From IMG/VR virus record IMGVR_UViG_3300025073_000817, positions 1 through 64,000 of that record: a DNA stretch of 64,000 nt, one strand, 5' to 3'. The stretch's first letter is position 1. Every line of letters begins with the position of its first letter. Position numbers and translations under genes: made by a program. This DNA is from a virus. The notes beneath the pieces are model-generated. The model ran no database searches, was not told the origin of the DNA, and was given only the letters and a program-made list of their open reading frames with translations. Positions 45,562 through 49,176 of this stretch are shown in pieces.

Positions 45562-46488
45562 ATGAATTTACTAATTATCGACGGATCTAGCATAACATAT
45601 CGCGAATTTTTCGCCTTTAAAAAAAGGCCACTTACCATTACTTTAGAAAATGGTACCGAACTTACCACAAGTGCTGTTTTCAGCTTTGCAAAAGCCATTA
45701 TTTATATGGCAGAACGTAATGAGTATTCTTTCTATATTACGACTTGGGATACTCCACCATATAAAAAGAAATTAAAATTTCCAGATTATAAAGAAGGTAG
45801 GAAAAGAGATAAAAAAGATTCCGAAAACTTATTTAGAGAAATGGACATGATTAAAATCTTAGCGAATTCTCTAAATATACCATGCTTTTATTCTAAAGGA
45901 TATGAGGCTGAAGATGTTTGCAGATCAGTTATTAAAAGAATTGGCAAAAAGTTTGATGAAATAACAATTCTTGCAAACGATAACGATTATAATTCATTAC
46001 TAAGTGACAAAATATCTATTCTAAAAAATGGTAGAGAAGGTTTGATCAAATTTACCCATGATGATCTTAAACTTGATGGTATAGACAGTAAAACATTTAC
46101 TGAAGCCAAAAAACTGTCAGGGTGTACAACTGACAAAGTCAAAGGATTTAAAGGTATAGGATTTAAAACAGCAGTTGATCTTATAAGAACATTTGGATCA
46201 GCAGAAGCTGTATTTAATAATAAAAGTGAACTCCCAGAAAATATATCATCTAAATTAGAGAAAGGAGGATATGATACTTTAGAAAAAACAGCCTATCTGA
46301 TTAAAATACTTAATCCTAAAAAACTAAAACTGCATAAAAGTGATAATGAAGTATCTGCAGAAAATATGCTAGAATTTATAGAAGCAGAATCTCTTCTAAA
46401 ACCAAGGTTTCTATTGCTACTTCCTAAATTGGCAAAACAACAAGCTAAAATGTTTGATAAACTAGAAAAAAAGTTATTGCAAAGTTAA
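45562..46488 (+). CDS. 5'-3' exonuclease, FEN/PolA N-domain-like (308 aa)
   Basis: GAGGG precedes the ATG. Metal-binding acidic residues are visible at D7 (LLIIDGSS), D63, E115/E117/D118 (GYEAEDVC), D140/D142 (ANDNDYNSLL) and D191. A helix-3-turn-helix (VKGFKGIGFKTAVDL, 193-207) binds DNA. Size and motif order match phage flap endonucleases such as T5 D15 and the T4 RNase H group, which remove RNA primers and recombination flaps. It is the first gene of the early rightward region. No DNA polymerase is present in the window. Confidence 0.85.
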   Translation: MNLLIIDGSSITYREFFAFKKRPLTITLENGTELTTSAVFSFAKAIIYMAERNEYSFYITTWDTPPYKKKLKFPDYKEGRKRDKKDSENLFREMDMIKILANSLNIPCFYSKGYEAEDVCRSVIKRIGKKFDEITILANDNDYNSLLSDKISILKNGREGLIKFTHDDLKLDGIDSKTFTEAKKLSGCTTDKVKGFKGIGFKTAVDLIRTFGSAEAVFNNKSELPENISSKLEKGGYDTLEKTAYLIKILNPKKLKLHKSDNEVSAENMLEFIEAESLLKPRFLLLLPKLAKQQAKMFDKLEKKLLQS

Positions 46489-46505
46489 ATAATCAGTTGT
46501 ATAAT
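46477..46505 (+). promoter_or_regulatory. Promoter of short RNA 1
   Basis: TTGCAA (46477-46482), 17-nt spacer, TATAAT (46500-46505). It overlaps the last codons of the exonuclease gene. Confidence 0.65.
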
Positions 46506-46511
46506 ATCAGT

Positions 46512-46598
46512 AGAGATGGTTGTTTCGTTTTCCTTCGACGCCATGCTTCTCTCCTCCTTAAGAGCCCCAAGAGACTCCCCACCTCTTGGGGCTCTTTC
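46512..46598 (+). ncRNA. Short RNA 1 with exposed anti-Shine-Dalgarno segment
   Basis: Begins about 7 nt after the -10 box and ends in a terminator hairpin. A 5' stem-loop is formed by AGAGATGG (46512-46519) with CCAT and CTCT (46541-46552). Between the two stems lies single-stranded CTCTCCTCCTTA (46549-46560), complementary to the ribosome binding site AAGGAGGAG. No good reading frame with a ribosome site lies inside. Shares promoter type, size class and exposed CCTCCT with the RNA at 48.85 kb. Predicted from sequence only. Confidence 0.55.
46560..46597 (+). terminator. Intrinsic terminator of short RNA 1
   Basis: Perfect 14-bp stem AAGAGCCCCAAGAG (46560-46573) with CTCTTGGGGCTCTT (46583-46596) around a 9-nt loop. 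The following T run is short. Confidence 0.65.
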
Positions 46599-46616
46599 CA
46601 TTTATTGGGTAATCAG

Positions 46617-47625: not shown

Positions 47626-47632
47626 AAAAGTA

Positions 47633-48140
47633 TGGGGTAGCACTAGCAATGCGTCTCTATATCAAGTAACACGCCACCTAGTGTTTAGCATCAAAGGGTT
47701 ACATTAGAGCCTTGATGCTCTCTATGCAGCCATATGTTTTCTGATTAGTGTCTTGAAAAAACAGCTTCTTAGTGAAGTATTAAATCAGAAAAACCAAGGG
47801 GGGTGCATAGATTCCTCCTCTTCTCCCTAACTTAAGAAGGCGTCCGTTAATTCAGACGATTTCTCGGGCCGTGTTAAATAGCGACTGTGTACGATATTTT
47901 TTAAACCGTTTCTTATCAATGTCGCTGACAGCTCTTTAAGAGTGCTAGAAACGAAAATTAATATCGTCTTTTAAATTTTCTTTAGATATCTGCGGAGAAC
48001 CCTGTAAAGCACTTCGGTGGACGTGCAAATTGAAGCCAAGTCCGGTTACAGGGAACTAAAGAAAAACCATAGCGGTTCGGGCGTGGGGGGAAGGGGGGGT
48101 CTGCCGAGACCTCGGGTCGAGGCAGGTTGGAAGTACAAAG
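47633..48140 (+). ncRNA. Large, intricately folded non-coding RNA candidate
   Basis: The ~815-bp gap has no supported gene but many long perfect helices: CACTAG/CTAGTG (47641/47678); AGCATCAA/TTGATGCT (47687/47712); CTATGCA/TGCATAG (47722/47804) enclosing TTTTCTGATT/AATCAGAAAA (47737/47783); ACGATATT/AATATCGT (47891/47960) enclosing CGTTTCT/AGAAACG (47907/47947); AGCGAC/GTCGCT (47880/47921) crossing these as a pseudoknot; TTTCTTTAG/CTAAAGAAA (about 47977/48055) enclosing CCCTGTAA/TTACAGGG (48000/48046); and CTGCC-GA-GACC-TCG-GGTC-GA-GGCAG at 48100-48124. Unpaired CCTCCTC lies at 47814-47820. Size and complexity recall the GOLLD/ROOL class of phage RNAs, but identity is not established; the 3' end is uncertain. 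Confidence 0.6.
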
Positions 48141-48219
48141 AAAGCTTCTCTCTGATCTTTTTTCTATAATTTAAATCACTTCTAAAATTAAAGTATCTAA
48201 ATCTGAAGTCTTTTCTATC

Positions 48220-48273
48220 CTCATGATGCGATCTCAGATCGCATCATGAGGCAATGAGCCGGAGGCTCATTGC
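48220..48273 (+). repeat. Two back-to-back perfect hairpins
   Basis: A 15-bp inverted repeat with a single central base (48220-48250; CTCATGATGCGATCT and its complement) is followed at once by a 10-bp hairpin with a GGA triloop (48251-48273; GCAATGAGCC). They may end or process the large RNA upstream. There is no immediate T run, so a Rho-independent terminator is not certain. Confidence 0.6.
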
Positions 48274-48403
48274 AATTAAAAACCTTTCTTTTATTCGGTA
48301 CTAACACTTTGTTTTTTTCTGTCACATGAATCTTAAAATCATTGAAATCTTAACAATCACTAAGTAAGTTAAGTTTTTAACAATTAAATAGCAGGAATTG
48401 ATT

Positions 48404-48787
48404 ATGAAAAAGAAAAGATATAGTGGAGAGATATGGACAGCCAACTACTTTATTGATGATCTTGATAGACTTGATATCACAATTAGAGGGAAGCATGAAA
48501 TAGGAAGAATTTTTGCACCTACTTGGGAAATGGTTATGGCTTTAAAGAAAGCCAATGACCCGAAAACTTATATTCCTAGATATATTGAAAAATATAATCA
48601 AATGATGGATGAATCCTATAGAAAGAATAGAGAAATTTGGAGATATGTTATACAGATGCCAAGAGTTGTTTTTACTTGTTATTGTGGTGCAGACAAGTTT
48701 TGCCATAGAGTATTGTTAGCTAATTATTTTCATAAACATTTTGGATCAAAGTATAGAGGAGAAATCTATAGGAAAAGAAGAAAATAA
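48404..48787 (+). CDS. DUF488-like protein (127 aa)
   Basis: Start MKKKRYSGEIWTANYF chosen (CAGGA 7 nt upstream). The C-terminal VVFTCYCGADKFCHRVLLANYF closely matches the Cys-x-Cys ... Cys-His-Arg signature of DUF488-type proteins, whose biochemical role is unknown. The N-terminal half is alpha/beta with a long helix (YIEKYNQMMDESYRKNREIW). Lies between two non-coding RNA units. Confidence 0.7.
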   Translation: MKKKRYSGEIWTANYFIDDLDRLDITIRGKHEIGRIFAPTWEMVMALKKANDPKTYIPRYIEKYNQMMDESYRKNREIWRYVIQMPRVVFTCYCGADKFCHRVLLANYFHKHFGSKYRGEIYRKRRK

Positions 48788-48813: not shown

Positions 48814-48842
48814 TTGCAATTGCTTATTGCTTATTGTATAAT
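48814..48842 (+). promoter_or_regulatory. Promoter of short RNA 2
   Basis: TTGCAA (48814-48819), 17-nt spacer, TATAAT (48837-48842). The spacer contains the tandem TTGCTTATTGCTTATTG. Confidence 0.7.
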
Positions 48843-48848
48843 ATTGGT

Positions 48849-48981
48849 GTAAAGGTACACATGTAGCAACTAGAGGTTTCACCTCCTTTCTCTCAGTTGC
48901 GACCCTAAGAGGCTCTTTGACATAGAACTCATCACTACCACCTCCTGCTTGATGAGCATTCTTGCAAAGAGCCTCTTTTTT
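48849..48981 (+). ncRNA. Short RNA 2 displaying two anti-Shine-Dalgarno loops
   Basis: About 133 nt from promoter to terminator. Stem-loop 1 is GTGTA/TACAC (48847-48860), which begins at or just before the inferred 5' end. Stem-loop 2 is GCAACT+AGAG with CTCT+AGTTGC (48866-48900), leaving a 14-nt loop GTTTCACCTCCTTT. Stem-loop 3 is the terminator, whose inner stem CTCATCA/TGATGAG (48928-48956) holds the loop CTACCACCTCCTGCT. Both large loops carry CACCTCCT, the same sequence as the 3' end of bacterial 16S rRNA that pairs with GGAGGTG ribosome sites. No coding potential seen. Confidence 0.7.
48907..48981 (+). terminator. Intrinsic terminator of short RNA 2
   Basis: A 13-bp perfect stem AAGAGGCTCTTTG (48907-48919) with CAAAGAGCCTCTT (48965-48977) runs into TTTTTT (48976-48981). 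The long loop contains the second anti-Shine-Dalgarno hairpin. Read-through would enter the small-gene array. Confidence 0.8.
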
Positions 48982-48999
48982 GACTATTAAGGATTTATT

Positions 49000-49176
49000 A
49001 TGAATAAGTACACATTAGATAAATATATTCAGTTAGGAAAATCAGTTATACTCATAAAAGATAAAACCATTAGGCGTATAATGGGAATATATAAACACGA
49101 AAATAAAATATTGGGAGTTGTGGTTGAGGGAATATACGTATTACTTCCTATTGATGAAATAGAGATAATAAAATGA
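49000..49176 (+). CDS. MNxYT-family small protein 1 (58 aa)
   Basis: First gene of the tandem array, starting MNKYTLDKYIQLGKSVILI about 20 nt after the terminator of short RNA 2, with AAGGA upstream. Shows the family plan: MNxYT start, a basic helix, a G(K) turn, then short strands ending in an acidic hydrophobic tail (LPIDEIEIIK). Stop TGA overlaps the next ATG. The fold is probably a small SH3-like beta barrel (inference). Confidence 0.7.
   Translation: MNKYTLDKYIQLGKSVILIKDKTIRRIMGIYKHENKILGVVVEGIYVLLPIDEIEIIK

Follow-up and report, generated by a model that had tools for sequence, protein, structure and literature searches.

The window analysed here (64,000 nucleotides, positions 1 to 64,000 of a virus record of 114,591 bases) belongs to a tailed-phage-like genome (Mu-type portal, phage capsid E protein, C-family DNA polymerase), for which a Bacillota-like host is plausible, since the relatives of its terminase include Bacillota phages and genomes (Brevibacillus, Alicyclobacillus and Paenibacillus, 33-35% identity), next to a Candidatus Fermentibacteria assembly (39%). 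The locus under study lies between a gene that matches Pfam DUF488-N3a (4e-9) and phrog_2450 (48,404-48,787) and an operon of small proteins that begins at 49,000 (Table 1). The latter belong to a set of ~52 paralogues (~40-118 aa, starting with MNxYTxxKxxxPGxKVRI) that occupy 49,000-71,584 and are scattered up to 114,167 of the record; many of their genes overlap as ATGA and have no Shine-Dalgarno (SD) sequence, and no relative of the proteins was found in viral contigs. On the other side of the locus, 47,628-48,290 is a candidate large structured RNA: it follows a TATAATA box, seems to be non-coding, folds strongly (MFE -108.6 and z -4.1 for 47,940-48,290), contains a long palindrome (around 48,219-48,251) and matched nothing in Rfam. 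At 48,513-48,558 on the minus strand, inside a coding gene, the histone 3' UTR stem-loop family scored 24.3 bits against a gathering threshold of 34, a hit that is surely due to chance.

Table 1. Coordinates of the RNA unit, its sibling and the associated genes (positions in the window)
Feature	Position	Strand	Basis or remark
Sibling unit promoter, TTGCAA-17-TATAATAT, same class	46477..46507	+	exact promoter match
Sibling RNA unit (putative): CUCUCCUCCUUA, then terminator AAGAGCCCCAAGAG-ACUCCCCAC-CUCUUGGGGCUCUU	46508..46600	+	z -5.54
RNA unit promoter, TTGCAA-17-TATAATAT	48814..48844	+	exact class, 4 copies on the genome's + strand
Small RNA (predicted)	48849..48981	+	start inferred ~7 nt past the -10 box; T run taken as the end
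Hairpin 1, stem GUAGCAACUAGAG / CUCUCAGUUGCGAC, loop with UCACCUCCUUUCU	48863..48903	+	folding, accessibility
Loop 1 CACCUCCU, inside UCACCUCCUUUCU	48880..48887	+	motif position, accessibility
Terminator hairpin and T6	48907..48981 (hairpin to 48,977)	+	z -7.48 when folded alone
Loop 2 CACCUCCU	48939..48946	+	motif position, accessibility
First downstream gene	49000..49176	+	ATG 18 nt past the T run
Gene cluster, leaders GGAGGTG(A); candidate phage targets	52773..61650	+	more copies to ~68.5 kb of the record

An initial sequence-only reading of this stretch had described a 133-nt non-coding unit framed by a promoter (TTGCAA-17-TATAAT) and a strong terminator, and in our analysis the hexamers (TTGCAA at 48,814-48,819, TATAAT at 48,837-48,842), the 17-nt spacer and the terminator were all borne out. 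The promoter, moreover, belongs to a recurrent class: TTGCAA-17-TATAATAT has four exact copies on the plus strand of the genome (0.005 expected) and none on the minus strand, which is stronger evidence than a single promoter would provide. Two of the four copies (46,477 and 48,814) would drive RNA units and the other two stand upstream of protein genes; the fourth (114,194-114,591 of the record) precedes a frame that, on visual inspection of its initial residues, resembles a TnpB/OrfB-type protein and is cut at the end of the record. The transcript probably begins near 48,849, and the longest reading frame within 48,849-48,981 has 13 codons; the designation of this segment as a stand-alone non-coding RNA unit, with its own promoter and an intrinsic terminator-like hairpin, is well supported at the level of predicted elements. 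To judge by its sequence, it thus constitutes an independent transcription unit, as trans-acting small RNAs with anti-SD motifs do; it matched no Rfam family and no tRNA. A reading of the unit on the minus strand was dropped, as the hairpin has no T run on that strand. At the base of hairpin 1 (48,861-48,866) an AUG is immediately followed by UAG and preceded by AAAGG; this start-stop pair could position a 30S subunit on the hairpin 1 stem, or be fortuitous.

The predicted fold of the whole RNA is far more stable than that of its shuffled versions (MFE -44.0 kcal/mol vs -26.1 +/- 3.6; z -4.92). In the terminator hairpin, a short irregular segment separates a 13-bp GC-rich base from a 7-bp upper stem (CUCAUCA/UGAUGAG), which is capped by a 15-nt loop (CUACCACCUCCUGCU), and the hairpin is followed by T6; folded alone (stem AAGAGGCUCUUUG/CAAAGAGCCUCUU plus T6) it reaches z -7.48, and in a scan of the 114.6-kb genome it ranked top in stability among terminator-like hairpins outside called genes. 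Hairpin 1, which displays UUUCACCUCCUU in its loop, is modest when folded alone (z -1.3 to -2.5). The motif CACCTCCT occurs once in each hairpin, and the MFE structure places both copies in loops (12 and 15 nt, respectively); the first had earlier been described as a loop of 14 nt, and its presence holds while its size differs by one closing pair. Opening the two CACCUCCU motifs would cost 0.10 and 0.24 kcal/mol, as compared to a median of 2.8 for random 8-mers in shuffled RNAs, so that in the predicted folds the SD-complementary motif is accessible in loops, in the manner of anti-SD small RNAs. An alternative hairpin (GAGGU-UUC-ACCUC) that would hide loop 1 was discarded, having a probability of only ~0.06.

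Such a double exposure is not expected by chance. Pairs of CCTCC located 25-90 nt apart and in two different hairpin loops occur once in the real genome and 0.03 times per genome in 30 dinucleotide-shuffled genomes, none of which contained a two-loop unit that was similarly stable and had a T run. Taken together with the MFE fold and the low opening cost, these shuffles confirm the initial observation of two hairpin loops presenting the anti-SD motif. The motif is also scarce: on the plus strand of the rightward half of the genome (~66 kb) ACCTCC has three copies, two of which are the loops of the RNA unit. Furthermore, the last ten bases of UCACCUCCUUUCU in loop 1 (CCUCCUUUCU, preceded by UCA) equal the entire mature 16S rRNA 3' tail of B. 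subtilis (tail sequence from PMC5732282), a tail assumed here for the host, from whose own it may differ; loop 2 copies CACCUCCU only.

The second RNA unit with a promoter of this class (promoter at the end of the exonuclease gene; Table 1) is apparently non-coding too, and carries CUCCUCC as well as a 14-bp terminator hairpin with a CUCCCC loop. Opening the former motif would cost 2.7 kcal/mol, part of it being paired, and the latter is free; the U tract is weak, weaker than that of the unit at 48,849-48,981. The sibling probably represents another RNA of this kind.

Potential binding sites are concentrated downstream. From 52.8 to 68.5 kb, a series of rightward genes has GGAGGTG 4-8 nt 5' of the start codon, and the motif precedes 12 of the 26 tested starts at 52-69 kb vs none of 131 elsewhere (leftward starts, 0/35). 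The size of this effect is biased upward, because five of the 12 starts were included on account of their motif, and the limits of 52-69 kb were set afterwards; with called genes alone the counts become 7/21 and 0/131. The original statement that many rightward genes use GGAGGTGA applies to the 52-69 kb cluster and does not extend to the rightward genes as a whole. At the GGAGGTG starts the duplexes predicted with loop 1 amount to ~-16 to -24 kcal/mol, as compared to means of -10.3 for leftward genes and -6.9 for 48-52 kb. Pairing at these starts did not exceed that obtained once the flanks had been shuffled (24 tests, lowest p 0.06), which means that target specificity rests on the SD itself and that the RNA looks generic, rather than tuned to one mRNA. 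The additional complementarity of gene 55,371 (AACCUCUA adjoining its SD) looked striking and was set aside, as it is the p of 0.06 among these 24 tests.

Taken together, the two-loop exposure beyond chance, the scarcity of ACCTCC, the clustering of GGAGGTG, the duplex strengths and the sibling point to the unit at 48,849-48,981 encoding a trans-acting antisense small RNA that masks SD sites, a reading to which we assign a probability of roughly 0.58. The exposed CACCUCCU loops would pair with SD sites of the form GGAGGUG(A), and the paired loops would block 30S subunits, so that the translation of mRNAs with such leaders would be repressed; that the loops may seize strong SDs in this way is argued by analogy with LhrC and NfeR1. 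Likely targets would be the extended-SD phage genes of the 52-69 kb region, together with host mRNAs bearing a near-perfect SD, and the structural genes and the small-protein operon right downstream would be spared, their SDs being weaker. The two redundant loops may confer a higher avidity, or allow one RNA to hold two mRNAs. Masking of ribosome sites, as put forward in the sequence-only reading, hence remains the best explanation of the sequence, the folding and the shuffle tests, the interpretation as a whole being supported in part; the competition with 16S rRNA that it also envisaged is tenable only as competition for mRNA, because the two RNAs are alike.

The class of mechanism is already known, as are phage RNAs that block ribosome sites. 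The same layout is seen in LhrC1-5 of Listeria monocytogenes, in which loop A and the terminator loop were experimentally proven to bind the SD region of lapB redundantly (PMC4132741). Both are two-stem-loop RNAs whose first and terminator loops each carry a CU-rich motif for SD binding; LhrC, however, is bacterial and multicopy, and its motif is UCCC, flanked by a U-rich stretch and present a third time in the linker, whereas the phage-encoded unit has CACCUCCU. Of the three UCCC sites of LhrC none is found in the unit (its sibling has CUCCCC once), and an Rfam scan of the region returned no LhrC match. In the rhizobial alpha-r14/cuckoo family, whose member NfeR1 has redundant anti-SD motifs (PMC10746234), several hairpins with diverged stems likewise each carry such a motif, but these alpha-proteobacterial RNAs have three motifs with an ultraconserved CCUCCUCCC, while here the unit has two CACCUCCU loops, no CCUCCUCCC, and an extended 16S tail in loop 1. 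Streptococcal csRNAs (PMC3091779) resemble it in their intergenic strong promoter and terminator, their mostly two stem-loops and their unpaired anti-SD, and differ in being controlled by CiaR and in joining the anti-SD to an anti-start-codon in unpaired regions; the unit has TTGCAA-17-TATAAT in place of a CiaR promoter, and no CAU adjoining CACCUCCU. Among RNAs of phage origin, SprD of Staphylococcus aureus (PMC2880579) is expressed from a converting phage and occludes both the SD and the start codon of its target mRNA, but it is prophage-borne, is directed at a host gene and forms a structured pairing with the sbi mRNA rather than presenting two 16S-like loops. The c4 antisense RNA of phages P1 and P7 (PMC12197685; RF01695) pairs around a ribosome-binding site, with its complementary sequence likely in loops, but is dedicated to ant mRNA rather than being generically anti-SD, and its covariance model had no match at E <= 10 in the whole 114.6-kb record. 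The initial statement that no phage example was known is consequently too strong, given that SprD and c4 RNA block ribosome sites from structured RNAs, and the two-loop layout is anticipated by LhrC (first and terminator loop) and alpha-r14 (three motifs). The defining tests of these families assigned the unit to no named one; what is unusual about it is the copy of the 16S tail in a phage RNA, the second unit with the same class of promoter, and the match to a clustered class of SDs.

Outside this phage, searches recovered no further example. BLASTN of the unit against phages and plasmids gave fragments only (E about 0.4 or worse), and relatives reached through the DUF488-like gene, the exonuclease, the terminase or the small-protein family were either the identical record or distant phages devoid of the RNA. 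With degenerate DNA patterns in viral contigs, the two-loop design proposed for a search in related phages appeared in none of the matches listed, copies of the same phage aside, and viral loci totalling 4.8 Mb (mostly chosen for paired CCTCC motifs or related genes) yielded no second two-loop example among their 864 candidate CCTCC pairs. A covariance model built from one sequence found nothing in 29 other viral records, in three Bacillota genomes with related terminases and in 299 Bacillota genomes; such a model is weak, and these nulls are therefore not strong negatives. In the collections searched there was thus no diverged homologue, the sole other copy being identical DNA.

The want of a conserved homologue is what one would expect if the hairpin were an ordinary intrinsic terminator of the gene at 48,404, with fortuitous CCTCC loops and no function as RNA, and this gene, which ends at 48,787, may need a terminator. 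We nevertheless consider this improbable on account of the promoter class, the structure and the loops: a promoter of the exact recurrent class intervenes between the upstream gene and the hairpins, the terminator is unusually long and modular, and loops exposed in pairs at this stability were absent from all 30 shuffled genomes and from the 864 pairs of the viral loci. Somewhat less improbable, though still rather unlikely, is a role in cis, by which the unit would be the 5' leader of the small-protein operon, with the terminator setting entry into it and the free RNA as a by-product. The ATG at 49,000 follows the T run so closely that an ordinary promoter of its own does not fit, the weak SDs of the operon would let it escape an anti-SD RNA, and processive antitermination is frequent in phages. 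Folding disclosed no mutually exclusive antiterminator, however (shorter transcripts form hairpin 1 and weak pairing of the 5' arm, vs ~-31 kcal/mol for the terminator), so that control by attenuation would require a protein; moreover, a leader leaves unexplained both the two exposed CACCUCCU loops and a sibling with C-rich motifs.

The length of the 16S match raises a further alternative, namely that the UCACCUCCUUUCU copy is a decoy of the 16S 3' end. It would bind a factor recognising this tail, be it a ribosomal protein, an anti-SD-cleaving RNase or a factor of rRNA maturation, with a consequent change in the supply of ribosomes. Loop 1 contains the full B. subtilis tail, which is longer than SD masking requires. 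Upstream of it, on the other hand, the RNA has UUUCA where 16S rRNA has GAUCA, the element read by Era, and loop 2 has CACCUCCU alone; the tail compared, moreover, may not be that of the host. We regard the decoy as quite improbable.

If SD masking by the RNA is accepted, a broader and doubtful proposal can be formulated, in which the two phage RNAs act as a class-wide translation switch: loops copying the 16S tail would silence the phage genes with extended SDs (and host mRNAs with strong ones), late genes with weaker SDs would stay on, and SD strength would mark the temporal class. Were this true, the phage would govern a whole class of genes through their ribosome-binding sites (rather than a single target by means of a specific antisense RNA), with a sequence copied from the ribosome itself as its tool. 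Whether SD strength serves as an address label in gene timing could then be tested simply, and the tuning of translation would gain a compact natural part. The genome additionally encodes a DNA gyrase subunit A and an NAD-dependent DNA ligase (71,602-74,007 and 79,228-81,114 of the record, respectively).
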